From: Lysobacter sp. cf310
GTDB lineage: Bacteria > Pseudomonadota > Gammaproteobacteria > Xanthomonadales > Xanthomonadaceae
DNA: 64,000 nucleotides
Reading direction: 5' to 3'
Assembly: GCF_900114355.1 (NCBI RefSeq)
Contig: NZ_FOSS01000003.1
Span: 555,215 to 619,214, forward strand
The translations under genes were made by a program, and so were the position numbers. The notes below the pieces were generated by a model. The model ran no database searches. It was not told where the DNA came from and saw nothing but the letters and a program-made list of their open reading frames with translations. This document shows, in pieces, positions 5,648 through 63,256 of the stretch (positions are counted from its first letter, which is position 1; each line of letters begins with the position of its first letter).

Positions 5648-6145
5648 TCAGCCGCCCGAAGCCGGTTGCGACTGCGGCGGAGCCTGCTGCGGGGCCGGAG
5701 CGGCCGGGACCGTGGTCCCACTGGCGGCCGGCGCCTGCGGCGCGGTGGTCGCCGGCGCGCTGGGCACGGTCGAGGCCGGGGCGGCCGGCGCCGTCTGCGC
5801 CGGAGCGCTCGGGACCGTGCTGCCGGGCGCCGGGGTAGCGGGCTTGGCCGGGGTGTTGGCGATGTCCGCGGCCAGGCCGACGTCCTGCGAGGCCGGAGCA
5901 GCGCCGCCAGCGGCGCCGCGCGAGGCCTGCCAGGCCATGAACAGGCTGATCGCGAAGAACGCGATCGCCAGCCACTTGGTGGCCTTGGACAGGAAATTGG
6001 AGGAACCGCGGGCACCGAACACGGTCGCCGAGGCGCCGCCGCCGAAACCCGAGCCCGCCTGCGCGCCTGCGCCGCGTTGCATCAGGATCAGCGCGACCAT
6101 GGCGATCGCGATCAGCACATAGATGACGTTGAGGAACAACAGCAT
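5648..6145 (-). CDS. secG: Preprotein translocase subunit SecG with long Ala/Pro tail
   Basis: SecG is a small partner of SecYE in the inner-membrane translocon. The family core is residues 1-75: a first helix (MLLFLNVIYVLIAIAMVALIL), the conserved QRGAGAQAGSGFGGG loop, the SATVFGARGSSNFLSKAT motif and a second helix (LAIAFFAISLFMAW). The remaining ~90 residues are a low-complexity Ala/Pro/Thr/Gln tail, so the protein is 165 aa against about 110 in Escherichia coli. It is transcribed between tpiA and the tRNA-Leu. Confidence 0.95.
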   Translation of the reverse strand: MLLFLNVIYVLIAIAMVALILMQRGAGAQAGSGFGGGASATVFGARGSSNFLSKATKWLAIAFFAISLFMAWQASRGAAGGAAPASQDVGLAADIANTPAKPATPAPGSTVPSAPAQTAPAAPASTVPSAPATTAPQAPAASGTTVPAAPAPQQAPPQSQPASGG

Positions 6146-6203
6146 CGTCGAATTCTTTTCTTTGGCTACGTTGTGACGACCGCCGGGCGGGCCCGAAAGT
6201 TCG

Positions 6204-6959
6204 TCAGGGTGCCGCCGCGGCTGCGATGGCGTTGAAATCGGCGGCGACCAGGGAGGCCCCTCCGACCAGGCCGCCGTCGACGTCCGGCTGGGAAAACAGC
6301 GCGGCGGCGTTGTCGGCCTTCACGCTACCGCCGTACAGAATGGGTAGCGAGCCAGCAATTCTAGCATCGTGTCCGGCGATTTCGCTACGAATGAATGCGT
6401 GCACGGCCTGCGCCTGCTCCGGGCTGGCGGTCTTGCCGGTGCCGATGGCCCAGACCGGCTCGTAGGCCAGGATCGCGCCTTCCAGCGCCGCCACGCCCAG
6501 CAGGTCCAGCACCGGACCCAGCTGCTCCTGCAGGCGGTATTCGGTCTGGCCGTCCTCGCGCTCGCTCAGGGTCTCGCCCACGCACAGGATCGGCACCAGG
6601 CCGGCGGCCTTGGCGGCGGCGAACTTGCGCGCGACCAGCTCGCTGCTCTCGGCGTGGTACTGGCGGCGCTCGGAATGGCCGACCAGGCCGTAGCCCGCCC
6701 CCACATCCTTGAGCATCGCCGCCGAGACTTCGCCGGTGTACGCGCCCTTCTCGTTGCTGCTCACGTCCTGCGCGCCGAAGTCCAGGCCGCGACCGAGGTA
6801 ATGCTCGATCAGCTCGCCCAGGTAGGGCAGCGGCGGCAGGATGATGCGCTCGACCCCGGCCGGCGCCTGCGCGGCGACCTGATCCAGCAACCCGAAGGCG
6901 AACTCGCGGCTGCCGTGCAGCTTCCAGTTTCCGGCGACGATCCTGCGGCGCATGGCCAC
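6204..6959 (-). CDS. tpiA: Triosephosphate isomerase
   Basis: Interconverts dihydroxyacetone phosphate and glyceraldehyde 3-phosphate in glycolysis and gluconeogenesis (cytosol). The 251-aa protein carries the three catalytic signatures: the lysine of AGNWKLHG (K13), the histidine of LVGHSERRQ and the glutamate of the AYEPVWAIGTG stretch. The phosphate loop LYGGSVKADNA is also present. Two Met codons (residues 1 and 3) could start; I kept the first. secG follows 58 nt downstream on the same strand. Confidence 0.97.
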   Translation of the reverse strand: MAMRRRIVAGNWKLHGSREFAFGLLDQVAAQAPAGVERIILPPLPYLGELIEHYLGRGLDFGAQDVSSNEKGAYTGEVSAAMLKDVGAGYGLVGHSERRQYHAESSELVARKFAAAKAAGLVPILCVGETLSEREDGQTEYRLQEQLGPVLDLLGVAALEGAILAYEPVWAIGTGKTASPEQAQAVHAFIRSEIAGHDARIAGSLPILYGGSVKADNAAALFSQPDVDGGLVGGASLVAADFNAIAAAAAP

Positions 6960-7056
6960 TCCGTGGTACGAAAGGACGCAAGTTTACCGCAGCCCCGCGC
7001 CGCGCACGGACCGCACGCGGCGAGGAACCCCGACACGACCGGCAACGAAGCCCTCC

Positions 7057-7863
7057 ATGCCCGAAACCGCAAACACCCCTTATGCCCTGATCACGGGCGC
7101 CTCCGCCGGCATCGGCGCCGCCCTCGCCCGCGAATACGCCCGCCGCGGCGTGCCGCTGGTGCTGACCGCGCGCCGCGAGGATCGCCTGCAGGCCCTGGCC
7201 GCGGAGCTGCGCGATCGCGTCGCGGTGGAAGTGATCGCCGCCGACCTCGCCGACCCGGCCGCGCCCGCGCAGCTACAGGCCGAAACCCGCCGCCGCGGCC
7301 TGACGATCGGCCATCTGGTCAACAACGCCGGCTACGGCGTGCCCGGGCGCTACCTGGCCGACGACTGGAAGGTGCACGCCGACTTCCTGCAGGTGATGGT
7401 GACCGCGGTCGCGGAACTCACCCATCGCTACCTGCCCGAGATGGAGCAGCGCGGCCACGGCCGCATCCTCAACATCGCCTCGCTGGCCGGGCTGGCGCCG
7501 CCCTCGGCCGGGCACACCCTGTACGGCGCCGCCAAGAGCTTCGTGATCCGCTTCAGCCAATCGCTGGCGCTGGAAAGCCGGCCGCGCGGCGTGCACGTAA
7601 CCGCGCTCTGTCCGGGCTTCACCTACACCGAGTTCCACGACGTCAACGGCATGCGCGAGCGCATCTCGCGCCTGCCCAAGTGGCTGTGGCTGGACGCCGA
7701 CACGGTCGCGCGCCTGGGCGTGGACGCGGTCGAGCGCGGCGACGCGCGCTGCATCACCGGCACCGCCAACAAGATCGTGGCCGGGCTGGCGAAGTACCTG
7801 CCCGACAGCGTCGCCACCGCCCTGGTCGCGCGCCGCGCCAGCGATTTCCGCGACGCCGAATGA
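7057..7863 (+). CDS. Short-chain dehydrogenase/reductase (SDR)
   Basis: A 268-aa classical SDR. It has the cofactor-binding TGASAGIG at residues 13-20, an NNAGYG motif, a catalytic-type serine in NIASLAG and the YGAAKSF Tyr-x3-Lys pair. A TARRED segment after strand 2 suggests NADP(H) preference. The substrate cannot be deduced. The ATG at 7057 starts just before the Rossmann fold; the frame is open to 6952, but that stretch has no SDR character and overlaps the tpiA start. Its stop overlaps the next gene's start by 4 nt. Confidence 0.9.
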   Translation: MPETANTPYALITGASAGIGAALAREYARRGVPLVLTARREDRLQALAAELRDRVAVEVIAADLADPAAPAQLQAETRRRGLTIGHLVNNAGYGVPGRYLADDWKVHADFLQVMVTAVAELTHRYLPEMEQRGHGRILNIASLAGLAPPSAGHTLYGAAKSFVIRFSQSLALESRPRGVHVTALCPGFTYTEFHDVNGMRERISRLPKWLWLDADTVARLGVDAVERGDARCITGTANKIVAGLAKYLPDSVATALVARRASDFRDAE

Positions 7864-24430: not shown

Positions 24431-24529
24431 GGCCTACCTCTACCCCGCATCCTCGCTTAGACGCGTTAGCTTGTCATGCCGAACAGTTTGCATCGATGCT
24501 CCGCCCGAGATTCTTAGCCAACACCCAGT

Positions 24530-25069
24530 CTATTGAATCTGCTCAGGCAGGCTGCAGGCTTTGTAATAGACCTGACAATTGTCGAAGCCCTCAGCTTTGC
24601 ACAGTTCCATCCCGCGCTGCGCAGCTATCTCGGTGGTAGCGCCTCCATGCGCTCGCGAGTAACCGGTCGCGGCGATGACCACTGCACACTGGTTGTCGTA
24701 TATCAGATTCACCCTACAGTCCAGGCCTCCCTTAGCCCGGCAGTCCGCTAACGCCGCACTCTTCGCCCTGCGCTTGCTGCTACTGGCAACCGCAATTCCC
24801 AACCCCACGTTGCTGACCCCGTAGTCGAACGCGATCGCGCCCCAACGACTTGCCCAGCGTGGCCCGCCATCTTGCGGCTCAGTATTGTCGGTACTAGTGG
24901 ATCGCGGCAGACAGTTGATGACCCCTTGCTCAGGTCCCGGGGCCTGGTAGTAGCCTTCGGGGCACTTACCCTCGCCCGACGCCTGTGTGCTCGCGCACAA
25001 CAGAAATAAGAAAAAGCGTCGTCGATAACGACGCATTCTTCTCTCAACAGCTTGAGCAGAACACTTCAC
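24530..25069 (-). CDS. Secreted DUF4189 protein, paralogue A
   Basis: A 179-aa protein with a basic n-region and hydrophobic core (MRRYRRRFFLFLLCASTQASG), a likely Sec signal. It is followed by CPEGYYQAPGPEQGVINC and a DUF4189-type domain with WASRWGAIAFD, a Lys/Arg-rich helix and IYDNQCAVVIA. The mature part has eight cysteines in positions shared with the two neighbours. The GTG at 25069 overlaps the paralogue B stop (GTGA); an ATG at 25036 gives a tidier signal peptide and is an alternative. Function unknown. Last gene of a minus-strand run that begins with the virB5-like gene. Confidence 0.82.
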   Translation of the reverse strand: MKCSAQAVERRMRRYRRRFFLFLLCASTQASGEGKCPEGYYQAPGPEQGVINCLPRSTSTDNTEPQDGGPRWASRWGAIAFDYGVSNVGLGIAVASSSKRRAKSAALADCRAKGGLDCRVNLIYDNQCAVVIAATGYSRAHGGATTEIAAQRGMELCKAEGFDNCQVYYKACSLPEQIQ

Positions 25070-25554
25070 CTGATTCGAACTGGAAGGCTACAACCGGAAT
25101 AGTAGACTCGGCACCCTGCGTCGAGCTCGCCGCACCTCTTCATTCCAACCTCTGTTGCGACCCGAACTGACTCCGCGCCTTGCGACAAGTACTTGAAATC
25201 ACCAGTGATCATCACCGCGCATTGATTGTAGTAGACCAGATCAACCTTGCAGGCCTGGCCGCCACGGGCCTTGCATTGAGCGAGCGCTTCCTTCTGTGCC
25301 GCCCGCTTTCTCGGTATGTCGGAAGCCGCGCCGAACGCAGCATTGGCGCCATCGGTTGCAATCGCTCCCCAACGCGTGGCCCACTTTGGACCGGACCCAA
25401 CCGACTCCGCCCCTCCATCCGGAATTGGAGCGCAGCCTAGTACGCCGGGACCGTTCTGAGGATAAAAGCCTGGCGGGCAGGTGCCTCCTTCCGCCCGAGC
25501 CATACCTACCGGCCCAACGACTAGCAGCAAGAGGACAATGAGTGGAATCTTCAT
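25066..25554 (-). CDS. Secreted DUF4189 protein, paralogue B
   Basis: 162 aa, with a clear signal peptide (MKIPLIVLLLLVVGPVGMARA, cleavage before EGG). The mature part is CPPGFYPQNGPG...GCAP, then KWATRWGAIATD, a basic helix and VYYNQCAVMI. It keeps the eight cysteines of its neighbours but is the most divergent: the GYSR-HGGAT block of A and C is replaced by FKYLSQGAES. Its stop overlaps the GTG start of paralogue A. The 148-bp gap before paralogue C shows no gene. Confidence 0.82.
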   Translation of the reverse strand: MKIPLIVLLLLVVGPVGMARAEGGTCPPGFYPQNGPGVLGCAPIPDGGAESVGSGPKWATRWGAIATDGANAAFGAASDIPRKRAAQKEALAQCKARGGQACKVDLVYYNQCAVMITGDFKYLSQGAESVRVATEVGMKRCGELDAGCRVYYSGCSLPVRIR

Positions 25555-25702
25555 CGGCGATTTCCACTTGATTTAATGACTTCATCCCGTCCTGGCTGGC
25601 TGCTTGCAACACCGCAGGGAGTATTTGCGGGATTGTTGAATGCCCGGGTTCTCACTGTCTCTATCCGCTTCGAAACGTCGAACTGCGCTTGCGCAGGGAA
25701 AT

Positions 25703-26206
25703 TTACTGTATCTGCTGAGGCAGGCTGCAGGCCTTGTAATAGACTTGGCATTGACTAGTCCCAGCCTCATTACACATCTTCAAACCTCGTGTTGCTGCAA
25801 TCTCTACAGTTGCTCCACCGTGTGACCTCGAGTAGCCCACGCCAGCAATGACGACGGCACATTGATTGTCGTATATCAGGCTGATCTCACACTTCTGCCC
25901 GCCTTTCCCTCGGCACTCCGCCAACGCCGCTTGTATTGCTTTGCGCTTGCTGCTCATTGCCGCAGCCGCCCCTACGCCGACATTGCTTTCGCCCTCATCG
26001 ATCGCGATAGCACCCCATCGACTGGCCCAGCGTGGGCCCGCCTCGGCTTCAGAGGCGTTGTCGCCGGGAACGGGGCCGCAGTTGATGACTCCCTGAGTCG
26101 GGCCCGGCAACTGATAGTAGCCAGGGGGGCAGTTCCCCTCAGCCTCAACTTTGGTTGAGATGGCGCTGCAAGTAATCGCTAAAGCAAAGATCGCCCTCAA
26201 CTTCAT
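25703..26206 (-). CDS. Secreted DUF4189 protein, paralogue C
   Basis: 167 aa from the ATG at 26206, which is 6 nt after an AAGGAG ribosome site; two further Met codons upstream are less well placed. The signal peptide is MKLRAIFALAITCSAIS-TKVEA. The domain layout and eight cysteines match paralogue A closely, down to the ends KACSLPQQIQ versus KACSLPEQIQ, so A and C are recent duplicates. It begins about 35 bp after the virB6-like gene ends, on the same strand, and is probably co-transcribed with it. Confidence 0.84.
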   Translation of the reverse strand: MKLRAIFALAITCSAISTKVEAEGNCPPGYYQLPGPTQGVINCGPVPGDNASEAEAGPRWASRWGAIAIDEGESNVGVGAAAAMSSKRKAIQAALAECRGKGGQKCEISLIYDNQCAVVIAGVGYSRSHGGATVEIAATRGLKMCNEAGTSQCQVYYKACSLPQQIQ

Positions 26207-26241
26207 ATGCATCTCCTTGAAGCTCAATCACGGCCGTGCGC

Positions 26242-27318
26242 CTATGGAGTTCTGGGCCCTAAACCAGGCAGAGTTTGCCCACCTGTGCGACCAGAGTCAG
26301 GATTTGACGCTGCGGGCATGGGCGGTTGATAGGCAGCCCTCGCTTGCGACGTGGCTTCAGATTTGGCTTGAAAACCAGAGAAGTGGTTGAACCCTCCGAG
26401 CGTCCCCTGAAAAAACATCGCAGCCGCCGGCGGCACCGTGATGATCAGCACCGTCAGCAGCAGCCCTATCCCGCCTTGCTGCATCGCCTGGGTCGTCAGG
26501 CCTTCTACGTCTGTGCCGAGGATGCCGTTGATCGCTTTGGCCATCCACAGCGCCCCCGCCACGCGCGAAGCCAGTTCCAGCGCTATCGCGGTCACCGCGC
26601 TGAGCATGGCCATCGAGAACAAGGTGCCGAGGCCGTACATCAGCCATTTTCGGAACAGGTCCTTGGTCTGGTCGAAGATCAGGCACAGGATGAACAAGGG
26701 CCCCAGGCCGACGAACAGCGCCAGGGTGAACTTGTAGAGCAGCAGCATCGCGCCGGCCGTCATCGGCGGGCTGGCGGTGCCGAAGCCGGCGAACAGCAAC
26801 GCGCGGGCTTTTTCGTCGTACATCTGCTGGTCGCCGTCGACGATCTGGACCGCGTCGATCGCGCTCAGGGCCACCTGCATGTAGGCCAGGTTCTCGTCGA
26901 TCGCGTCGGCCGAACTGCGGTCGCTGTTGCCGGTGAACATGCCATGCACTTCGCGGTCCAGGTCCCCGGTCAGCGTCTGGTGCAAATCGCCGCCGAACAC
27001 CGACATGGTGGTGGCCACGCCGACGATCACCGCGATCCGGGTCATGCTAGTGACCAGCGCGATCATCGGCTCGCGCGACTGCCCGGTGACGATGCGATAG
27101 CCGGCGATCAGTATCCACAGCGTGACCAGGGTCAGCGCGATGCCGGTGGCCCAGGTCATGAAGCGCCCCATGAGCTCCAAGCCGAACTCATCGACCTTGA
27201 CGCTGAGGTAGTCGTTGACCAGCTTGAAGAAGGCGAACTCGCCGATGCCGGCCGCGCGCGGCGACCAGGCCTCCCACGCGGCCACAAAGCCGCTGCCCCA
27301 TTGCAACCCTGCTGGCAT
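26242..27318 (-). CDS. virB6: VirB6-like type IV secretion inner-membrane protein
   Basis: A 358-aa polytopic protein of the VirB6/TrbL class. A periplasmic N-terminal stretch is followed by helices at about 50-72 and 84-105. A ~75-residue loop and a cluster of three to four helices from about 168 to 300 follow, the last preceding VPPAAAMFFQGTLGGFN. The tail is Pro/Gly-rich. VirB6 forms part of the inner-membrane channel of T4SSs. An AGGAAG ribosome site precedes the ATG. It follows the virB5-like gene by 65 bp. No other vir or trb genes are in the window. Confidence 0.85.
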   Translation of the reverse strand: MPAGLQWGSGFVAAWEAWSPRAAGIGEFAFFKLVNDYLSVKVDEFGLELMGRFMTWATGIALTLVTLWILIAGYRIVTGQSREPMIALVTSMTRIAVIVGVATTMSVFGGDLHQTLTGDLDREVHGMFTGNSDRSSADAIDENLAYMQVALSAIDAVQIVDGDQQMYDEKARALLFAGFGTASPPMTAGAMLLLYKFTLALFVGLGPLFILCLIFDQTKDLFRKWLMYGLGTLFSMAMLSAVTAIALELASRVAGALWMAKAINGILGTDVEGLTTQAMQQGGIGLLLTVLIITVPPAAAMFFQGTLGGFNHFSGFQAKSEATSQARAAYQPPMPAASNPDSGRTGGQTLPGLGPRTP

Positions 27319-27383
27319 CGTTAGCTTCCTGCTGGGGCCAAGCCCCGTTCGATGAAATGCGATTCGCCCGCGCTACCGGCGAC

Positions 27384-28184
27384 TCAGGGCTTCAGAGCGG
27401 CTTTGAGCGCAGCGGCCTGGACGACCTGACCGACGATGCCGCCCATGCCCTGTCCCTTCTTGCCGCGCATCGCGCGCTTGGCCAGCCGTGCCTGATCCCA
27501 CTTCAAGGACTCGATATAGCTTTGGTAGGCGGTCATGCGGGCCTGCCAGTAATCGAGATCCATCGAAGTGCGCGCCACGAAACGCTGGACCTCGTTGTCG
27601 TTGGCCGCCAACGCCCCTTGCTCGTCGCCGACCTGGTCGCGCTGCCGCTGCACGTCCTGGAACTCGCGATTGCGCTTCATCAGCGTCTTGAGCATGCGCA
27701 CGGACTCGTTGTACTTGGCGTTCTCGGCCTGGACCATGCGCTCGCAGATCTTCTGCTGTTCGTCCAGCACCTTGCCGTCCATCTTCGGCTGCGCAGCCGC
27801 GAACACGCCCGTCAACAGACCGCGCGCGCCACCCTCGCCGTTGCCTTTCTCGGGACAGCTATCCGCCATCCCGTAGTTCAGATCGCGCTCGGGAAAGGTG
27901 TCTTCCATCTGCGGATCGCCCATGTTCAGGCGCTGCAGACGGATCAACTGCTGTTGATAGTGCTTGTACGTTTCGGTGTAGGACTTGTAGGTCTCGCCCC
28001 AGCGCTGGGCCTGAAGACCGAACTCCTTGGCATCCGCGAAGGTTTGCTTGATCTGGCCCATGATCAGGCCCGGGTCCTCGACTACGACTTGCGCCGCAAC
28101 GGGCCCTGACGCCAGGCCGCAAACGGCCAGCAAGGCGATCGTACAGCGGCGCTTGCGCGACAAAGACGGGAAACTCCATTTCAT
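27384..28184 (-). CDS. virB5: VirB5-like type IV secretion pilus-associated protein
   Basis: 266 aa with a signal peptide (MKWSFPSLSRKRRC...GPVAAQ). The mature protein is long-helical, with segments such as FGLQAQRWGETYKSYTETY and a basic C-terminal region ending VVQAAALKAALKP. This helical hairpin architecture, secretion signal and position immediately before virB6 match VirB5/TrbJ minor pilins. I start at 28184 because GAGAGG lies about 9 nt upstream; the open frame continues to 28259. The identification rests on architecture and neighbour more than on a sharp motif. Confidence 0.78.
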   Translation of the reverse strand: MKWSFPSLSRKRRCTIALLAVCGLASGPVAAQVVVEDPGLIMGQIKQTFADAKEFGLQAQRWGETYKSYTETYKHYQQQLIRLQRLNMGDPQMEDTFPERDLNYGMADSCPEKGNGEGGARGLLTGVFAAAQPKMDGKVLDEQQKICERMVQAENAKYNESVRMLKTLMKRNREFQDVQRQRDQVGDEQGALAANDNEVQRFVARTSMDLDYWQARMTAYQSYIESLKWDQARLAKRAMRGKKGQGMGGIVGQVVQAAALKAALKP

Positions 28185-28676
28185 CGTATTCATCCTCTCG
28201 CGATTCATTTCGCGACCGGCCTGATGCCAAAAAATAATGCGCAATTTATACACAAACATTCACCCACACAGATCGCGACAGAAACCATCCACAACGCGAT
28301 CACGGTCACATTAGCGCGGGTTTTCAGCGGCAGTGCAAGAGGTGTTTTCCACTAGGCGGAGACGCTATTCAGTGATGCGCGGACTATCTACGGATAATGC
28401 GTGCCATATCACACTAATAATCACCAAACCCCGCAACATGAATATCAAAAATAAGAATTACTAACTCACAATCTAAGCAAGAGCGGACACCACTGGTATT
28501 TGCCTTCACGACGAACGCGAACGTCGCGTACGAGCCGCTCCCTCGATGCCCAAGCGCCAGCGTCCTTGCTCGTGGGCCTGAAGACGGACCGCCCCCCGCC
28601 CGCTGCGGCGCTATGCCGCACCCGTCCCGCACGGCCGGCCCGGTATCATGGTTGGGATACCCCTGTCGGACCGGCC
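28185..28676. other. Gene-free, AT-richer gap between virB5 and SCO1 genes
   Basis: About 490 bp between divergent genes, noticeably richer in A/T than the rest of the window between about 28220 and 28500 (for example CCAAAAAATAATGCGC and ATCAAAAATAAGAATTAC). It must contain promoters for both sides. The small open frames inside lack ribosome sites and coding character. I see no tRNA, repeat or insertion sequence. Confidence 0.6.
28244..28250 (-). promoter_or_regulatory. Candidate -10 element for the virB5-virB6-DUF4189 run
   Basis: Minus-strand TATAAAT, 60 nt upstream of the chosen virB5 ATG, inside an A/T-rich patch. The -35 region is weak. It is the best promoter-like sequence upstream of the whole minus-strand cluster. 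Confidence 0.35.
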
Positions 28677-31870: not shown

Positions 31871-33484
31871 CTACATCGAGCGCGCGGCCCGTTGGCTTTG
31901 CTGCTGCTCCTGCTGCTCGGTCTGCGGCGCGGGCACGGCGCCCAAACGCTGTTGCAGTTCTTCGCTGCGACCGCGCAACGCGTCGGCCAGGGGCATCGAG
32001 GCGATCCGGCGACCGGGATCGCTCAGTTCGCCCTGCACTACCAGCACATTGGGCTCCTGCCCGGGCGGCGAACGCCCGAGCATCACGTGGTCGATGCGGT
32101 CGAAACGGTGCTGCGCGGCCAGGCAAGCCACGTTGAGATCCAGGCATGCGCGCGCATCGCCGCTCACCGCGCCCAGCTGAGCGTCCAGGCCGCGGCCCTG
32201 ATCGCGTGCCTGCCGCAACAGCGGATGGTCCGCGCGCTCGGGCGCCACCGGCGCATCCACGTCCAGGCTTGCGCGCAGTCCGGGCGCGCGCGGGTCCACG
32301 TGCAGCAGTTGGCTGACGTTGCCGTCGCGGGCCAGGTTGAGGTCGGTGGTGCCGTCGCGGTTGCGCACGCGGCTGAGGTCGTTGCGCGCGACCTCCGACC
32401 ACTGCCCGTCCAGATAGGCGCGGCCGGGTCCGTCGCGATTCCAAAGCACGAAGTCGTCGCCCTGAGCGTACAGCCCGCCGGTGGCGCGGTTGCGGCCCTC
32501 GGCCTGCGGGCGGCCGTAGGCGTAGCCCGCGCCGCGGTCCAGGGCATCGATGAACGCCGGCGCCTGTTCCTTCTGCAGGAACAGCTCCTTGATGGTGGTG
32601 TACTCGGCGCGCTGGTTGGGACGGGTCGCGTCCTGGCCCAGCTGCGAAGGATTGGCCAGCGGATCCGCGAGTACGCCCTGCCAGGCGGTATGCAGGGGGC
32701 TGCGCGCATCGGCATTGCGTAGTGCGACCACCACCTCGGCCCCGGCCAGGGTGGCGTCGCGGCCGGACTCCATGTAGTCGCCGTTGGCGCGCAGCATGCG
32801 GCCGATGGCCTGATTGACGTCCGCGACGCTGTCGTGGGTGCCGTTGTTCATGTCGCGCAACAGGCCCGGCGCCCAGCGATCGCCGCTTTGGTTCTCGACC
32901 TTGGCGACCATGGCCGCCAGACGGATCTGATCGTCCGGTGTCGAATTGCGGAACAGCGCGGTCTGACGCACCTGCGCCAGGGTGCCGGTCATCAGCTCCT
33001 CGACCTGGGCCGCGTCGCGATCGTGGATGTAGGTGACGCCGGCATCGGAGCGCAGGAAGGTATTGAGGTTGCGTTCGATGCGCGCGTCCATCGGCCGGCC
33101 GTTCTGCGCGTCGATGGTGTCGCCGTTGCGGGCCAGGTCGGCGGCGGTCTGGCGACGCTCGGCCGCGCTGAGCGCGGTGCCGGCCGGCTGGGTCGCGGCC
33201 CAGGCCTGGTACGCGTCCAGCAGGGACGGAATCACTTCCGGGTGCTGGCCCAGATCGGTCTGCAGGGTGCCGATGGAATAACCGCTGTTGCCTACCGGGG
33301 ACATGCGGCCGGTATCGGCGTCGCGGTTGCCGGCGAAGGACAGGCGCGTGGATACGTCGCGCCCGCCAATGCTGCCTTCGGACCCCACGCCGATGGCGAA
33401 ATACGCCACGGCGCGCAGTTCGGCATCGGTCAGCGGGCGCGGCGTGGCGGCGGCGGGTGCTACTTGGTCTGCGGGTACGTTCAT
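31871..33484 (-). CDS. Predicted antibacterial type IV effector (X-Tfe) with C-terminal XVIPCD
   Basis: 537 aa without a signal peptide. Residues ~419-515 match the XVIPCD secretion domain recognised by VirD4 in the Xanthomonadales killing T4SS: ADHPLLRQAR, a central helix, HRFDRIDHVMLG and NVLVVQGELSDPGRRIA. A Gln-rich tail (EEL-QQRL...EQQEQQQSQ) follows, as is usual for these proteins. Residues ~20-285 form a domain I cannot name; GSEGS (E36) and GNSGYSIGTLQTD (65-77) resemble the Glu and Gln-rich loop of lysozyme/lytic-transglycosylase folds, so peptidoglycan attack is my inference. AAGGAGG precedes the ATG. The gene lies 27 nt after a lipoprotein gene, the usual place of the immunity partner. 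Confidence 0.85.
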   Translation of the reverse strand: MNVPADQVAPAAATPRPLTDAELRAVAYFAIGVGSEGSIGGRDVSTRLSFAGNRDADTGRMSPVGNSGYSIGTLQTDLGQHPEVIPSLLDAYQAWAATQPAGTALSAAERRQTAADLARNGDTIDAQNGRPMDARIERNLNTFLRSDAGVTYIHDRDAAQVEELMTGTLAQVRQTALFRNSTPDDQIRLAAMVAKVENQSGDRWAPGLLRDMNNGTHDSVADVNQAIGRMLRANGDYMESGRDATLAGAEVVVALRNADARSPLHTAWQGVLADPLANPSQLGQDATRPNQRAEYTTIKELFLQKEQAPAFIDALDRGAGYAYGRPQAEGRNRATGGLYAQGDDFVLWNRDGPGRAYLDGQWSEVARNDLSRVRNRDGTTDLNLARDGNVSQLLHVDPRAPGLRASLDVDAPVAPERADHPLLRQARDQGRGLDAQLGAVSGDARACLDLNVACLAAQHRFDRIDHVMLGRSPPGQEPNVLVVQGELSDPGRRIASMPLADALRGRSEELQQRLGAVPAPQTEQQEQQQSQRAARSM

Positions 33485-56523: not shown

Positions 56524-57033
56524 CTAGGTAAAAGTCGCTGCACAGCGCCCGAGATCATCGCAGGGCCGCAGGCCGAACATGATACTGCGCTCTCCGTCTG
56601 TCTTGTGCCGGCGCGCGACTCGCGAAGCTCGTGGTGACGACGCAAATCGAATAAACGCCGACTTTCTATCGGGTCGATGACTCGAACTTAATCTTCGAAC
56701 CTGCCGATATTCTCCGCAGAGAAACTGATGCGATCGCAAGGAAGATTCGATCGTGACCGCAAATGGCACTTCCACTGACGCCTTCGTTCTCCCCAAAGAG
56801 CGCTTTTCTACGAGTCGATCAGTACGGTCCATTTCGAGATCGCAACGTCGAGAAGCACCTCCCCCCCTACCTTTCATGCGCCAAACCGGTTCGGCGCACT
56901 TTGCATAATCTGTCTATTCGACAAGCACATGCAAAGCTCGTTAACGACATGTTACGTTCGGGTTCGTCGGGGGATTGACGACGAAGAAATGGCCAGGGAC
57001 AGGCCCACCATCCAAAAAGTTAGGGGATAACTC
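56524..57033. other. Gap between apbC and the first receptor gene
   Basis: 510 bp with no credible gene; the small frames on both strands have no ribosome sites or family features. It is richer in A/T than the flanking genes. At its right end are a 6-bp inverted repeat (TGCGCC...GGCGCA, 56877-56898), a CATAAT at 56904-56909 and the receptor upstream element at 56940-56960. Confidence 0.6.
56940..56960 (+). promoter_or_regulatory. Shared receptor upstream element, copy 1
   Basis: A 21-bp block beginning GTTAAC and containing CATGTTA and GTTCG, 73 nt before the receptor ATG. 18 of its 21 bases recur upstream of the second receptor at almost the same distance. Both copies contain the inverted half-sites TAAC-N5-GTTA. 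Operator or promoter core is the likeliest meaning. Confidence 0.55.
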
Positions 57034-59868
57034 ATGGAAGTAACCGAGAAGCGGCTGCCGCGCAGCCGTCTGACTGCTGCACTTTTGGCGGCTTTGATCG
57101 CGCCCGCCGCCGGCGGTGCGTTCGCCCAGGACGCCGCGCCTGCCCAGCCTCAGCCTGCCAGCGACACGCCGACCGACGTCGACGGCGTCACCGTGGTCGG
57201 TTCGCGCATCAAGCGCGCGCAGATCGAAGGCCCGGCGCCGGTCACCGTCATCAGCCGCGACGACATCGACAAGCAAGGCTTCCAGACGGTCTCCGACATG
57301 CTGTCGTCGCTGACCCAGAACACCACCAACTCGTTCACCGGCGACCTCGCCGTCAACGGGTTCACGCCCAACGCCCAGGTGGTCAACCTGCGCAACCTCG
57401 GCCCGGGTTACACCCTGGTTCTGGTCAACGGCCGTCGCATCGCCGACTACCCGCAGCCCTACAACAGCGACCGTTCCTCGGTGAACGTCGGCGCCATCCC
57501 GTCCTCGATCATCGAGCGCGTGGAAGTTCTGGCCGGCGGCGCGTCCGCCATTTACGGTTCGGACGCGGTCGCGGGCGTGGTCAACATCGTCACCCGCACC
57601 AACTTCGACGGCAACCTGCTGCGCGGCACGGTCGGCACGACCGGCGCGGGCGGCGGCGACAGTGTCAACCTCGAGTACTCGGGCGGCCGCGTCGGCGACA
57701 ACTGGAGCACGACCTACGCGCTGCAGTACAGCTACAACGAGCCGATCTTCGCCTCCCAGCGCGACTTCATGGACGACCTGCGTGACGGTCCGCGCGGCGA
57801 CCGCGTCGGCCCCAGCTTGTCGCTGGTCGCGATCGACCTGCTCAACCGCAACCGCGCCGCCTACTACCCGGGCGACGCCGTCTGCGACCGCTTCGGTTTC
57901 TCGCCCTACCTGTCCGCCACCCGCGGCCAGATCTGCGGTTCCTACGACTCCGTCGCGTCGCGCTCGCTGTCCAACAAGCGCGAAGCCATGTCGGGCTACG
58001 CCTACGGCACCTACGACTTCAGCAATGGCATGCAGGGCTGGGGCAGCCTGATGCTGAACAACTCCGAGTCGACGTCCAGCAGCGGCACCGAGTTCTGGGG
58101 CACCGCCGGCGATCCGTTCCTGCCGGCCAGCTTCTACTTCGATGAAGGTCTGGGCACCTACGTCCAGCTGCAGCGCGTGCTGACACCGAAGGAAGTCGGC
58201 GGCAACACCGCCGTGGTGACCAAGTACAAGGAAAAGAGCTACGACTTCGCCACCGGCCTGCGCGGCGACTTCGGCGACCGTTTCGACTGGGATCTGTCGG
58301 CCTCGTACGGTCGTTACGATTACAAGTCGGACTCGCCGCGCCTGCTGGCCCAGGCCGTGCACGACTACTTCCTCGGCCCGCAGACCATCGACGACTACGG
58401 TTATGCGCACCACACCCTGAACCTGGATCGCTGGCACACGCCGTTGACCCCGGAGCAGTACCGCAGCATGTCGACCCGCGTGGTCAACAAGGGCCACACC
58501 ACGTCGGCGCAGGCGAACTTCGTCATCAGCGGCGATCTGTTCGACATGCCGGCCGGTCCGGTGGGCTTCGCGGGCACGATGGAGTTCGGCCGTCAGACCA
58601 TCGACCTCAAGAGCGATCCGCGCACCGATCCCGCACGTACGCCGGACGCAAACACGCCGTATAACCTGGTCAGCTCGGGCAACATCCAGGGCGAACGCGA
58701 CCGCTACGCGATCGGCGCCGAGTTCCGCGTGCCGCTGCTGGATAACTTGAGCGCCCAGCTGGCCGGCCGTTACGACAAGTACGACGACATCACCCAGGTC
58801 GATGGCGCCTTCACCTACGGCCTGGGCCTGGAGTTCCGTCCGATCGAGCGCCTGTTGCTGCGTGCGAACTACTCCACCAGCTTCCGCGCGCCGGACATGC
58901 CGCTGGTGTTCGCGCAAGGCGTCGCCTCGTTCGCCGGCATCGTCGACTACTACGGCTGCCGCCGTGGCGGAGACACGGTCACCGAGTGCCGTGCCAACAA
59001 CCACCCCAGCCAGTACCAAACGCTGAACCAGACCGTCGGCAACCCCGACCTGCAGGAAGAAAAGGGCAAGTCGCTCACCGCCGGTTTCGTGCTGGATCTG
59101 ATCGAAGGTATGTCGATGTCCGTCGACTACTACAAGATCGTCCTGGACGACCAGGCCACGGGCCTGAGCCTGGACTACATCCTGGAGAACGAGGCCAACT
59201 GCCGTCTCGGCACGCTGCCGGACGGTTCGCCGGTCCCGCAGGGCCAGAACTCGGCGTTCTGCCAGGACATCGTGTCGCGCGTCACCCGTCAGGTCGCCCC
59301 GGGTAACCCGGACGGCCGCGTCGTCAACGTCCGCGCCGGCTACATTAACGCTTCGCGCTCGGAGAACACCGGCATCGACGCGACCTGGCGCTACCGTTTC
59401 GACACGGACCGTTGGGGCAACTTCGACTTCAATCTGGCCTACAGCCTGAGCCTGGGTGAGAAGTATCGGCAGTTCGAGGAAGACGATCTGATCGACTACC
59501 GCGACCGCCTGGACAACGACAACCAGCGCAGCCGCGTGCGCGGCAGCGTGACCTGGGAGAAGGGCGACTGGACGACGACCGTGTTCGGTCAGCGTCTGGG
59601 TTCGGCGCCGAATGCGGCCGAAGCCTCCGGTCGGGATGCGGTGACGGGCGTGTACTACGGCGCGCGCCTGCAGCCGTACATGCTCTACAACCTGTCGATC
59701 GAGAAGAAGTTCGGCGAGAACATGGAAGCCGCGTTCGTCGTCAACAACGTGCTCGACAACACCCACCGCAAGGATCCGAGCAACACGGGCTATCCGTTCT
59801 TCAACCCGTTCATCGGTGCCGACCCGTACGGCCGCGCGTTCTTCCTGCGTCTGTCGTACAAGTTCTGA
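57034..59868 (+). CDS. TonB-dependent outer-membrane receptor 1
   Basis: 944 aa. A signal peptide with a long n-region (MEVTEKRLPRSRLTAALLAALIAP...GGAFA) precedes a plug domain (about 45-190) that starts with VTVVGSRIKRAQIEGPAPVTVISRDDI. The plug continues through VVNLRNLGPGYTLVLVNGRR, VEVLAGGASAIYGSDAVAGVVN and a 22-strand barrel to the canonical terminal Phe (FLRLSYKF). The EGP-linker and size resemble the xanthomonad receptor expansions for peptides, glycans or similar polymers; the ligand is unknown. AGGGGAT precedes the ATG. Ends at a strong terminator. Confidence 0.93.
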   Translation: MEVTEKRLPRSRLTAALLAALIAPAAGGAFAQDAAPAQPQPASDTPTDVDGVTVVGSRIKRAQIEGPAPVTVISRDDIDKQGFQTVSDMLSSLTQNTTNSFTGDLAVNGFTPNAQVVNLRNLGPGYTLVLVNGRRIADYPQPYNSDRSSVNVGAIPSSIIERVEVLAGGASAIYGSDAVAGVVNIVTRTNFDGNLLRGTVGTTGAGGGDSVNLEYSGGRVGDNWSTTYALQYSYNEPIFASQRDFMDDLRDGPRGDRVGPSLSLVAIDLLNRNRAAYYPGDAVCDRFGFSPYLSATRGQICGSYDSVASRSLSNKREAMSGYAYGTYDFSNGMQGWGSLMLNNSESTSSSGTEFWGTAGDPFLPASFYFDEGLGTYVQLQRVLTPKEVGGNTAVVTKYKEKSYDFATGLRGDFGDRFDWDLSASYGRYDYKSDSPRLLAQAVHDYFLGPQTIDDYGYAHHTLNLDRWHTPLTPEQYRSMSTRVVNKGHTTSAQANFVISGDLFDMPAGPVGFAGTMEFGRQTIDLKSDPRTDPARTPDANTPYNLVSSGNIQGERDRYAIGAEFRVPLLDNLSAQLAGRYDKYDDITQVDGAFTYGLGLEFRPIERLLLRANYSTSFRAPDMPLVFAQGVASFAGIVDYYGCRRGGDTVTECRANNHPSQYQTLNQTVGNPDLQEEKGKSLTAGFVLDLIEGMSMSVDYYKIVLDDQATGLSLDYILENEANCRLGTLPDGSPVPQGQNSAFCQDIVSRVTRQVAPGNPDGRVVNVRAGYINASRSENTGIDATWRYRFDTDRWGNFDFNLAYSLSLGEKYRQFEEDDLIDYRDRLDNDNQRSRVRGSVTWEKGDWTTTVFGQRLGSAPNAAEASGRDAVTGVYYGARLQPYMLYNLSIEKKFGENMEAAFVVNNVLDNTHRKDPSNTGYPFFNPFIGADPYGRAFFLRLSYKF

Positions 59869-59888
59869 TCTGTTGCACTCCGCTACAA

Positions 59889-59921
59889 GAAAGGCCCGGC
59901 GCAAGCCGGGCCTTTTTCTTT
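59889..59921 (+). terminator. Rho-independent terminator after receptor 1
   Basis: Stem AAGGCCCGGC / GCCGGGCCTT with a GCAA tetraloop, followed by TTTTCTTTG. Textbook intrinsic terminator 20 nt after the stop codon. Confidence 0.9.
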
Positions 59922-60185: not shown

Positions 60186-60256
60186 CCTACAAGGGGACAG
60201 CAACACGCCAAGGTCGGCACACAAGAAACACATCTAGTTCATTTGGGGGACAACCA

Positions 60257-63091
60257 ATGGCAGTTCGCAACGCATCCGGCCTGCAGCGCAGCAGGCTGAC
60301 GGCGGCGCTCATCAGCGCCTTGGTCCTTTCGGTCGCCGGCACGGCGAGCGCACAGGACGCCAACACGCAACCCGCTTCGACCCCGGAAAAAGCCACCGAC
60401 ATCGACGGCGTCGTGGTCACCGGTTCTCGCATCAAGCGCACCGAGATCGAAGGTCCGTCGCCGGTCACGGTGATCACCTCCGCTCAGATCGAGCGCGAAG
60501 GCTTCAACACCGTTTACGACGCGCTCAACACCCTGACCCAGGCTTCGGGTGCGACCCAGAACGAAGTCTTCCAGGGCGGCTTCACCCCGAACGCCAGCGT
60601 GATCAACCTGCGCGGCCTCGGCCCGGGTCGTACCCTGCTGCTGATCAACGGTCGTCGCGCCGCGGACTATCCGCTGCCCTACAACGGCCAGAGCAACTTC
60701 GCGAACTTCGGCAACATCCCGGCCGCCGCCGTGGACCGCATCGAAATCCTGGCCGGCGGCGCTTCGGCGATCTACGGTTCGGACGCGGTCGCGGGCGTAG
60801 TCAACGTCATCCTCAAGACCAACTTCGAAGGCGACCAGCTCAAGGTCCGCGCCAGCACCACCAGCCAGGGCGGCCGCGATATCGGCGACATCCAGTGGAT
60901 CGGTGGCAAGACCGGCGACAACTGGAGCGTCACCTACGCCCTCGAGTACTTCAACAGCGAGCCGCTGTACGGCTATCAGCGCGACTTCATGGATTCGGCG
61001 CTGGACAACCCGCTGCCGCCCGCCTTCGTCGGCATCCAGCCGACTGGCACCATGCGCGTGCGTCGCCGCACCGGCTCCACCGCCGGTTCGTACTTCGCTC
61101 CGCCGGCTGGCGCCTGCGAACAGCTCGGTGACGAGTGGGTTCGCTGGAACTTCCGCTCCGCCTCCGCGGCGGGCGCGATCACCAACCTCGGCCAGGCCTG
61201 CGGCAGCTTCAAGGACGTCGGCTACCAGACCATCAGCAACGGCAACAGCGATCTGTCGGGCTACGCCTACGGCACCTACCAGTTCGACAACGGCATCGAA
61301 GGCTGGGCCAGCCTGCAGGCGTGGAAGTCCAAGGCCAAGTACGGCGCCGGCACCCAGTTCTGGGGCGGCCGCACCGTCGGCGCACTGTGGTTCGACCAAG
61401 GCTTCAACCAGCTGGTCGACGCGCAGCGCGTGTTCACCCCGCAGGAAGCCGGCGGCATCAAGAACCTGCTGGCCGAGAACGACGAGCGCTCGTACGACTT
61501 CGCGTTCGGCTTCCGCGGCACCTTCGGCGAGAAGTGGGACTGGGATCTGACCCTGTCGCGCGCCGAGTACAACATCAAGGTCGACCGTCCGCGTCTGCTC
61601 TCCACCGCGGTCAACGATTGGTTCCTGGGTCCGCAGCTGGGCACGCGCGTCGTCGGCGGCGTGACCTACCCGGTCTACAACCTCAACCAGTCGCGCTACT
61701 ACCGTGCGTTGACCCCGGAACAGTTCGCGGCCCTCAACACCACGGTCCGCACCGACGCCGAGTCCTACGTCAACCAGGGCAACTTCGTGGTGTCGGGCGA
61801 CCTGTTCAACCTGCCGGCCGGCCCGCTGGGCTTCGCCGCGGTGTTGGAAGCGTCGCAGCAGGAGTACAAGCTCACCGCCGATCCGCGCATCCTGCCCGAT
61901 TACACCGGCGCCGACCGTCCGTACAACCTGACGGGTACTGGCGGCGGCGGCGAGCGTAGCCGCTACGCCCTGGGCGTCGAGTTCTCGGTGCCGATCTTCG
62001 ACTCGTTGAAGGCCAGCTTCGCCGGTCGTTTCGACAAGTACGACGACGTCACCTCGGTGGACGACGCCAAGACCTGGAACGCCGGCCTCGAATGGCGTCC
62101 GCTGGACAACCTGATGTTCCGCGGTTCGTACTCGACCAGCTTCCGCGCCCCCGACATGCACTACGTGTTCGCCGAGCGCAGCGGTTCGTTCAGCGCCATC
62201 TTCGATACCCGTCGCTGCTTGCAGGATGGCGGCAGCGCCTCCAGCGGCTGCACCGGCACGCCCTACAACTACACCGCGTTCGGCGTCCGTCAGGGTACCC
62301 GCGACCTCGAAGAGGAAACCGGCAAGTCCTGGACCGCCGGTCTGGTGTGGGACATCTTCGAAGGCATGTCGTTCACGGCCGACTACTACAACATCGAGAT
62401 CGAAGACGGCGTCTCCGACATCACCTCGGCCTACATCCTCGACGGCGAAGCCGGCTGCGCCACGGGTCTGACCCGTAACCGCACGCCGTTCACCCTGGGC
62501 GCTCCGGGCTCCGCGTTCTGTAACGACATGCTCTCGCGCGTGTCGCGTCTGAGCGCGCCGGGCACCCCGAACGACGGCCAGATCACGGAAATCCGCCGTG
62601 GCCCGATCAATCGCGCGGTTCAGAGCGTGACCGGCATCGACGCCACCCTGGATTACCGTTTCGACACCGACCGTCTGGGCGACTACCGCTTCCAGCTGGC
62701 CTACTCGCACACGCTGGAGCAGAAGACCGCCCAGTTCAAGGGCGACCCGGTGCTGGATTACCGCGACGACCTGACCAACTTCGACTTCCGCAGCCGCATC
62801 CGTGCGACCGCGACCTGGGAGCGCGACGATTGGCAGGCGGCGGTGTTCATGCTGCGCTACGGCAGCCTGCCGAACTGGCAGGAAACCGGCCGTATCGCGC
62901 CTTACTTCATCTGGAACACCAGCGTGGGTAAGAACATCACCGAGAACGCCAAGCTGGTCCTGTACGTGAACAACGTCTTCGACAAGACCCATCCGCGCGA
63001 CGACGGCTTCAACAGCTATCCTTACTTCTGGCGTGCGTACAGCCCGATCGGCCGCGAAGTGGCCTTCGAGTTCCAGTACAGCTTCAAGTAA
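60257..63091 (+). CDS. TonB-dependent outer-membrane receptor 2
   Basis: 944 aa, exactly the length of receptor 1. The signal peptide runs through QRSRLTAALISALVLSVAGTASAQ. The plug has VVTGSRIKRTEIEGPSPVTVIT, VINLRGLGPGRTLLLINGRR and VDRIEILAGGASAIYGSDAVAGVVN; the barrel contains FRGSYSTSFRAPDM and TWERDDWQAAVF. The last residues are EFQYSFK, so a Lys follows the usual terminal Phe. Barrel loops differ from receptor 1, which suggests different ligands after an old duplication. GGGGGA precedes the ATG. Confidence 0.93.
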   Translation: MAVRNASGLQRSRLTAALISALVLSVAGTASAQDANTQPASTPEKATDIDGVVVTGSRIKRTEIEGPSPVTVITSAQIEREGFNTVYDALNTLTQASGATQNEVFQGGFTPNASVINLRGLGPGRTLLLINGRRAADYPLPYNGQSNFANFGNIPAAAVDRIEILAGGASAIYGSDAVAGVVNVILKTNFEGDQLKVRASTTSQGGRDIGDIQWIGGKTGDNWSVTYALEYFNSEPLYGYQRDFMDSALDNPLPPAFVGIQPTGTMRVRRRTGSTAGSYFAPPAGACEQLGDEWVRWNFRSASAAGAITNLGQACGSFKDVGYQTISNGNSDLSGYAYGTYQFDNGIEGWASLQAWKSKAKYGAGTQFWGGRTVGALWFDQGFNQLVDAQRVFTPQEAGGIKNLLAENDERSYDFAFGFRGTFGEKWDWDLTLSRAEYNIKVDRPRLLSTAVNDWFLGPQLGTRVVGGVTYPVYNLNQSRYYRALTPEQFAALNTTVRTDAESYVNQGNFVVSGDLFNLPAGPLGFAAVLEASQQEYKLTADPRILPDYTGADRPYNLTGTGGGGERSRYALGVEFSVPIFDSLKASFAGRFDKYDDVTSVDDAKTWNAGLEWRPLDNLMFRGSYSTSFRAPDMHYVFAERSGSFSAIFDTRRCLQDGGSASSGCTGTPYNYTAFGVRQGTRDLEEETGKSWTAGLVWDIFEGMSFTADYYNIEIEDGVSDITSAYILDGEAGCATGLTRNRTPFTLGAPGSAFCNDMLSRVSRLSAPGTPNDGQITEIRRGPINRAVQSVTGIDATLDYRFDTDRLGDYRFQLAYSHTLEQKTAQFKGDPVLDYRDDLTNFDFRSRIRATATWERDDWQAAVFMLRYGSLPNWQETGRIAPYFIWNTSVGKNITENAKLVLYVNNVFDKTHPRDDGFNSYPYFWRAYSPIGREVAFEFQYSFK

Positions 63092-63111
63092 GCGACTGCT
63101 GCATTGTCCCC

Positions 63112-63142
63112 AGAAGCCCGGCGCAAGCCGGGCTTCTTTTTT
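63112..63142 (+). terminator. Rho-independent terminator after receptor 2
   Basis: Stem AGAAGCCCGGC / GCCGGGCTTCT with a GCAA loop and a following T-run, 20 nt after the stop. It is nearly the same hairpin as the one after receptor 1 (shared GCCCGGCGCAAGCCGGGC core), supporting a tandem duplication that included the 3' end. Confidence 0.92.
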
Positions 63143-63256
63143 GTCCGGTCGCGGCCTTTGGGGGCCCGCTTCCATACGCCGACGGATGCGGTATAAAGAA
63201 GGTCAGCCGCGGGGCTGCCGCGCGGCCAGAACCATGCCTATCCCTGGGAGGGGAAC

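Follow-up and report, generated by a model that had tools for sequence, protein, structure and literature searches.

The window analysed here is a 64,000-nucleotide stretch of the genome of Lysobacter sp. cf310 (assembly GCF_900114355.1, contig NZ_FOSS01000003.1; G000:C3:555215-619214, where G000 is the source genome), and it carries on its minus strand a compact cassette of five genes: a virB5-like gene and a virB6 gene, as found in type IV secretion systems (T4SSs), followed by three genes of the DUF4189 family. The virB5-like gene (27384..28259) probably starts at 28184, 28259 being the start of the longer open reading frame (ORF); from 28184, its product begins with the signal peptide MKWSFPSLSRKRRCTIALLAVCGLASGPVAA and contains two invariant cysteines. 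The virB6 gene (26242..27318) encodes a TrbL/VirB6 protein (PF04610) of 358 residues with a short, disordered C-terminal tail. All three DUF4189 genes encode exported proteins, namely gene 1 (25703..26209), whose product has nine cysteines counting the signal region, gene 2 (25066..25554) and gene 3 (24530..25069, with an alternative start at 25036). Gaps of 65, 32 and 148 nt, the second separating virB6 from DUF4189 gene 1, and a final 4-nt overlap (a 29-nt gap with the later start) are compatible with a single transcription unit; a scan of the cassette returned no promoter, and terminators there were at chance level. The flanks encode housekeeping functions, namely chorismate synthase, a methyltransferase of PrmB/PrmC type and SCO1.

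The window VirB6 matches PF04610 with an E-value of 1.9e-31 (109.9 bits, cut-off 25.9), and its profile matches the solved R388 VirB6 protein TrwI (7o3v; E 3.6e-11). The three small proteins belong to PF13827 (E 4e-14 to 1e-15), which bears out an earlier note, made from the sequence, that had reported three exported cysteine-rich DUF4189 genes on the same strand behind virB6. Searches against PADLOC and PHROGs gave no matches. The VirB5-like protein has no match in Pfam or the PDB; it is helical, precedes virB6 in the usual virB5 slot and carries a signal peptide and a central cysteine pair (135, 172), whose 36-residue separation is slightly beyond the 11-33 given for VirB5 (PMC6536674). A fold search with its structural model (pLDDT 72) gave no significant PDB match, to the solved VirB5 structures (TraC/TrwJ) or otherwise. 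A search of the 64 kb with profiles of the genome's own VirB1-4, VirB8-B11 and VirD4 (VirB7 being too short to test) detected no further T4SS gene, as had been noted earlier. Of the set VirB1-11 plus VirD4 that makes up a full locus of the X-T4SS, the bacteria-killing class A T4SS of Xanthomonas, Stenotrophomonas and Lysobacter (PMC6536674), the window thus holds B5 and B6 only.

The description of the cassette as standing alone holds within the window but fails beyond it. A complete bactericidal X-T4SS lies on the same contig at ~469-490 kb, ~100 kb away, in the order virB1-2-3-4-5-6, one DUF4189 gene and then effectors, together with B8-B11 and VirD4. The B5-B6-DUF4189 order is common to both loci. 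The comparison of the two VirB5/VirB6 sets, which the earlier note had proposed, revealed homology: the VirB6 proteins are ~52% and the VirB5 proteins 28% identical (E 6e-23), and the window DUF4189 proteins are 35-37% identical to that of the main locus and 42-66% among themselves. These similarities assign the cassette to the X-T4SS type, with the 3' end of the main virB operon as its homologous counterpart. In addition, the genome contains 18 matches to the effector domain XVIPCD and six DUF4189 genes. One putative X-T4SS effector gene (31871..33484, minus strand), with a C-terminal XVIPCD secretion domain (PF20410, 43.6 bits), lies outside the cassette proper at a distance of 3.6 kb, a position kept in two Lysobacter relatives (L057, L016). 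The genome also has two solitary DUF4189 genes, at G000:C6:547232 (L011) and C6:1188108 (L012), which share the N-terminal CPxG...C motif of the cassette proteins and have no virB neighbour.

In a tree of 114 VirB6 sequences, a single clade of 32 with a support of 0.988 gathers most detached VirB6 proteins, which come from Lysobacter, Luteimonas and Xanthomonas, and the VirB5 tree agrees, likewise uniting most detached VirB5 proteins, that of the window among them, in one supported clade. On these trees, the window cassette is not unique but belongs to an old clade of paralogues, a dimension missing from the earlier picture. Its nearest relatives, in Lysobacter sp. Root916 (L057) and G014 (L016), occupy the identical chromosomal position. 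A few detached cassettes (L037, L039, L043 and, in the VirB6 tree, L046) fall outside the main clade, and detachment therefore occurred more than once. The cassette shares with known X-T4SSs its type of VirB5 and VirB6 and a genome with a full locus and XVIPCD effectors, but it is placed 100 kb from the remainder of the system and in a separate old clade, and DUF4189 is unmentioned in the X-T4SS review (PMC6536674).

The genomes of some relatives suggest what such cassettes do. In G016 (X. arboricola NL_P126) and G058, the main locus reads D4-B8-B9-B10-B1-B2-B3-B4, with no virB5, virB6 or DUF4189 past VirB4, and the sole VirB6 in a whole-genome search is that of the detached cassette; G125 and G127 show the same arrangement for the X-T4SS, judged by coordinates. 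As the detached VirB6 is the only one of X-T4SS type in some relatives, such cassettes very probably work in trans, feeding a T4SS encoded elsewhere. The earlier proposal that the cassette could retarget or modify such a system stands to this extent, but its retargeting part did not gain the same footing. The pattern generalises a remark on X. campestris strains (pv. campestris ATCC33913/8004), whose fragmented vir locus lacks virB5 and virB6, both genes being located elsewhere (PMC6536674). There too, a detached virB5-virB6 pair accompanies an X-T4SS lacking both, but the window genome has both sets, and the clade, DUF4189 and the arrays treated below are not described for X. campestris. In the window genome, the cassette would act in trans beside an intact main set. 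The detached virB6 of X. arboricola NL_P126 (L048 4228-5664) contains in-frame tandem duplications with units of 102 bp and 93 bp, 100% identical, which may be real or an assembly artefact.

The association between DUF4189 and VirB6 was surveyed in 120 genomes of the family with completeness of at least 90%. VirB6 occurred in 52 genomes, DUF4189 in 42 and both in 39 (Fisher p 8e-17, uncorrected for relatedness), and 98 of the 126 DUF4189 domains lay within 8 kb of VirB6. The DUF4189-T4SS link put forward in the earlier note is thus real and far above chance, and the outcome that would have spoken against it, DUF4189 not being co-localised with virB5/virB6 in relatives, did not occur. A DUF4189 gene lies downstream on the same strand for 33/44 VirB6 near VirB4 and for 17/29 without VirB4 nearby; all 17 of the latter sit in genomes with VirB4 elsewhere. 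Within the loci retrieved around virB6, 203 of the 206 DUF4189 genes come after VirB6, a VirB6 fragment or another DUF4189; a single array can hold as many as six intact copies, and some otherwise complete X-T4SS loci, e.g., L070, L071 and L123, have no DUF4189. Among 160 genomes across the phylum, the link is essentially absent outside the family, DUF4189 and VirB6 lying within 5 kb of each other there only in G154. The link therefore belongs to X-T4SS-type systems, a Variovorax locus (L128) among them. In the single G154 case (G154:C2:111462-116898), DUF4189, with two domains, lies upstream of a weak match to VirB6, at a distance of ~4 kb. In X. citri, the gene xac2611, which immediately follows virB6 on the virB transcript (PMC7286519), is a candidate DUF4189 gene; its published quantitative PCR primers matched neither the loci nor 20 Xanthomonas genomes.

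The relatives also reveal how the 3' end of the cassette is exchanged. Between the window and Lysobacter sp. Root916, DNA identity falls to ~60-84% across 24450..27450, against mostly 90-99% in the flanking genes, and two DUF4189 genes of this segment occur only in the window. For virB5 the identity is 85-95%, and the main-locus VirB4, VirB6, VirB5 and DUF4189 of the two genomes are 94-100% identical at the protein level. The most informative feature, absent from the earlier note, is found in relatives, the window itself having no virB6 fragment: arrays of displaced 3' virB6 fragments near-identical to the parent gene, each with a divergent DUF4189 partner. Across 33 such units in 20 loci, median DNA identity is 87% for fragment to parent virB6 and 55% for DUF4189 to the first copy; the fragment value is the higher in 32/33 units, although units of one locus are not independent and virB6 is generally the slower-evolving gene. 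Fragment starts range from residue 76 to 283, and DUF4189 stands behind 48/50 fragments, mostly at normal spacing. The fragments are clearly decaying, and most DUF4189 copies have stayed whole (206 full against 67 partial pieces). To judge from these patterns, the 3' part of virB6 and DUF4189 form a recombining unit, and the arrays are what would be left by foreign virB6-DUF4189 DNA integrating through a crossover in virB6. In the orphan toxin/immunity modules of contact-dependent inhibition (CDI), Rhs and MafB systems, too, 3' fragments of a conserved gene have been displaced, and behind each of them stands a small gene that is divergent and usually intact. The present arrays resemble them in their virB6 fragments with mostly intact DUF4189 partners, but the variable part of VirB6 is a disordered, low-complexity tail of ~50 residues and not a toxin domain. 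Some tandem arrays contain several virB6 genes of nearly full length; these were observed in L099 (S. maltophilia MDMC339), where each such gene is followed by DUF4189, and at G135:C1:1619455-1627573.

Altogether, the five genes are best read, with a probability of about 0.5, as a specificity cassette for the bactericidal X-T4SS of this genome: a second VirB5-VirB6-DUF4189 set, detached from the main one, in which DUF4189 would be an exclusion- or immunity-like partner. The cassette VirB5 and VirB6 would join the envelope machine of the main locus (VirB1-4, B7-11 and VirD4), replacing the main pair or mixed with it, and would provide an alternative pilus platform and tip. This use of a shared machine is probable, and it is supported because relatives exist whose sole VirB6 lies in such a cassette. 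Recombination, as the sequences show, swaps the virB6 3' part and DUF4189 as a unit, and old DUF4189 genes remain, mostly intact, with a virB6 stub. Finally, DUF4189 proteins, exported to the periplasm or beyond, would block or protect against the T4SS of kin with the matching VirB6 variant.

This protective role, drawn by analogy with Eex/TrbK encoded beside VirB6 in conjugative systems, is possible at somewhat less than even odds. It draws on purifying selection in DUF4189 (omega 0.17), the absence of the gene from some complete loci, its multiple copies and the literature (PMC11493245; PMC8923210; PMC11045733). In conjugative systems, the genes beside virB6 often serve exclusion, which is dispensable for transfer and can be evaded by VirB6 replacement (PMC8923210; PMC11493245). 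For instance, SGI1 evades exclusion by providing another VirB6 homologue, TraG (PMC11493245; PMC8923210). Furthermore, the RP4 T4SS alone can kill, and recipients are protected only by TrbJ, its VirB5 homologue, and by the exclusion protein TrbK (PMC11045733). Like eex or trbK beside virB6 or trbL (IncN, IncP, IncW, TraG-Eex; PMC8923210; PMC11493245), DUF4189 genes encode small exported proteins and adjoin virB6; they differ in their soluble disulfide-rich fold, their multiple copies and their place in a killing system. More tentatively still, VirB6 variants, with VirB5, may set the specificity of a killing T4SS within a polymorphic self/non-self system, in which DUF4189 arrays would give kin protection (exclusion) against many variants and detached cassettes would switch the specificity group.

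Several results weigh against this interpretation. The identity of VirB5 relies on synteny and weak sequence similarity, and its model matched no solved structure. DUF4189 is almost never close to VirB6 beyond the family, and no relation to TrbK/Eex emerged among Pfam, NCBIfam, PADLOC or PHROGs matches. The AlphaFold2 model of the gene 1 product (pLDDT 88) has the fold of Rv1813c (Foldseek probability 1.00, E 0.022), known from Mycobacterium, and this predicted fold points to no mechanism. Rv1813c of M. tuberculosis is an exported DUF4189 protein (PDB 7nhz; PMC10269737); fold, family and export are common to both, but no VirB6 link is reported for Rv1813c, and the window proteins carry the additional CPxG...C motif. 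In addition, distances of the first DUF4189 in main loci track VirB4 (r 0.63) and, given VirB4, follow VirB6 weakly (partial r 0.11, p 0.03); that test therefore does not support VirB6 and DUF4189 as strictly cognate partners. Strong coevolution of the two, which looked good in a partial Mantel test given VirB5, was mostly gone with VirB4 as the control. VirB5 and VirB6, by comparison, covary beyond VirB4 with a partial r of 0.66, a result in favour of their joint use in the shared machine.

The main rival casts DUF4189 proteins as accessory structural components of the X-T4SS, either periplasmic or at the surface or pilus tip with VirB5 and VirB6, diversified per prey, with extra copies as alternative tips. 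Such a role is doubtful, although it would suit proteins that are exported, disulfide-rich, hypervariable like VirB5 (mean distances of 2.05 for VirB5, 1.40 for DUF4189, 0.70 for VirB6 and 0.19 for VirB4) and encoded immediately 3' of virB6 in the operon. Several otherwise complete loci dispense with DUF4189, no DUF4189-VirB5 covariation is left after accounting for VirB6, and up to six intact copies per array would be unusual for a structural subunit. Less likely, DUF4189 proteins would be ordinary X-Tfi immunity proteins neutralising XVIPCD effectors. DUF4189 precedes effector genes in the main operon, and the effector near the window cassette is conserved there; nevertheless, DUF4189 is tied to virB6 or its fragments and not to effectors, the 18 effector matches of the source genome face six DUF4189, and no effector was detected near many detached cassettes. 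A further possibility is that the arrays arose by ordinary tandem duplication of the virB6 3' end and its DUF4189 gene, diversity in DUF4189 not being selected for. This would explain the parental spacing kept in the arrays, but it was rejected as improbable on the contrast of 87% against 55% identity: a neutral stub cannot appear younger than its neighbour under simple duplication, and import or gene conversion is therefore needed. Least probable of all is that the cassette is the decaying remnant of an operon end that was duplicated and no longer works, for although it lies apart from the machine and displaced virB6 fragments elsewhere are decaying, each of the five genes is intact, the clade has lasted across genera and is the sole VirB6 source in some relatives, and VirB5, VirB6 and DUF4189 are under purifying selection (omega 0.16-0.19 in the families sampled, pairs at least 70% identical). 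Initially high dN/dS values for VirB5 and VirB6 were an artefact of saturated, badly aligned pairs.

If the specificity-cassette interpretation is true, its consequences extend beyond this locus. X-T4SSs kill rivals in plant, soil and clinical genera, and the protection known so far operates effector by effector; swappable VirB5-VirB6 with DUF4189 would make the machine itself polymorphic and could add a layer of kin protection at the channel. DUF4189, a family without a known bacterial role, also gains a genomic context. In the literature searched, which did not cover subscription papers, DUF4189 is mentioned in three papers, none of which addresses VirB6 by title or abstract, and orphan VirB6 modules are not described; the arrays and the DUF4189-VirB6 link thus appear undescribed there.

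DUF4189 also occurs in other settings. It is found in seven plasmid records, and the two regions read (L055, L056) are without VirB6; L056 (Rhizobium plasmid pMK-2) has three DUF4189 genes in tandem at 5818-7600, with no adjoining T4SS gene. Larger proteins with two DUF4189 domains per frame of 420-460 aa, with no VirB6 nearby, are encoded at G001:C4:110344, G090:C1:748002 and G114:C13:5038 and probably represent a different subfamily. Elsewhere in the window, two adjoining, very long ORFs on the minus strand (56941-59904 and 60239-63175; 987 and 978 aa) are possibly paralogues.

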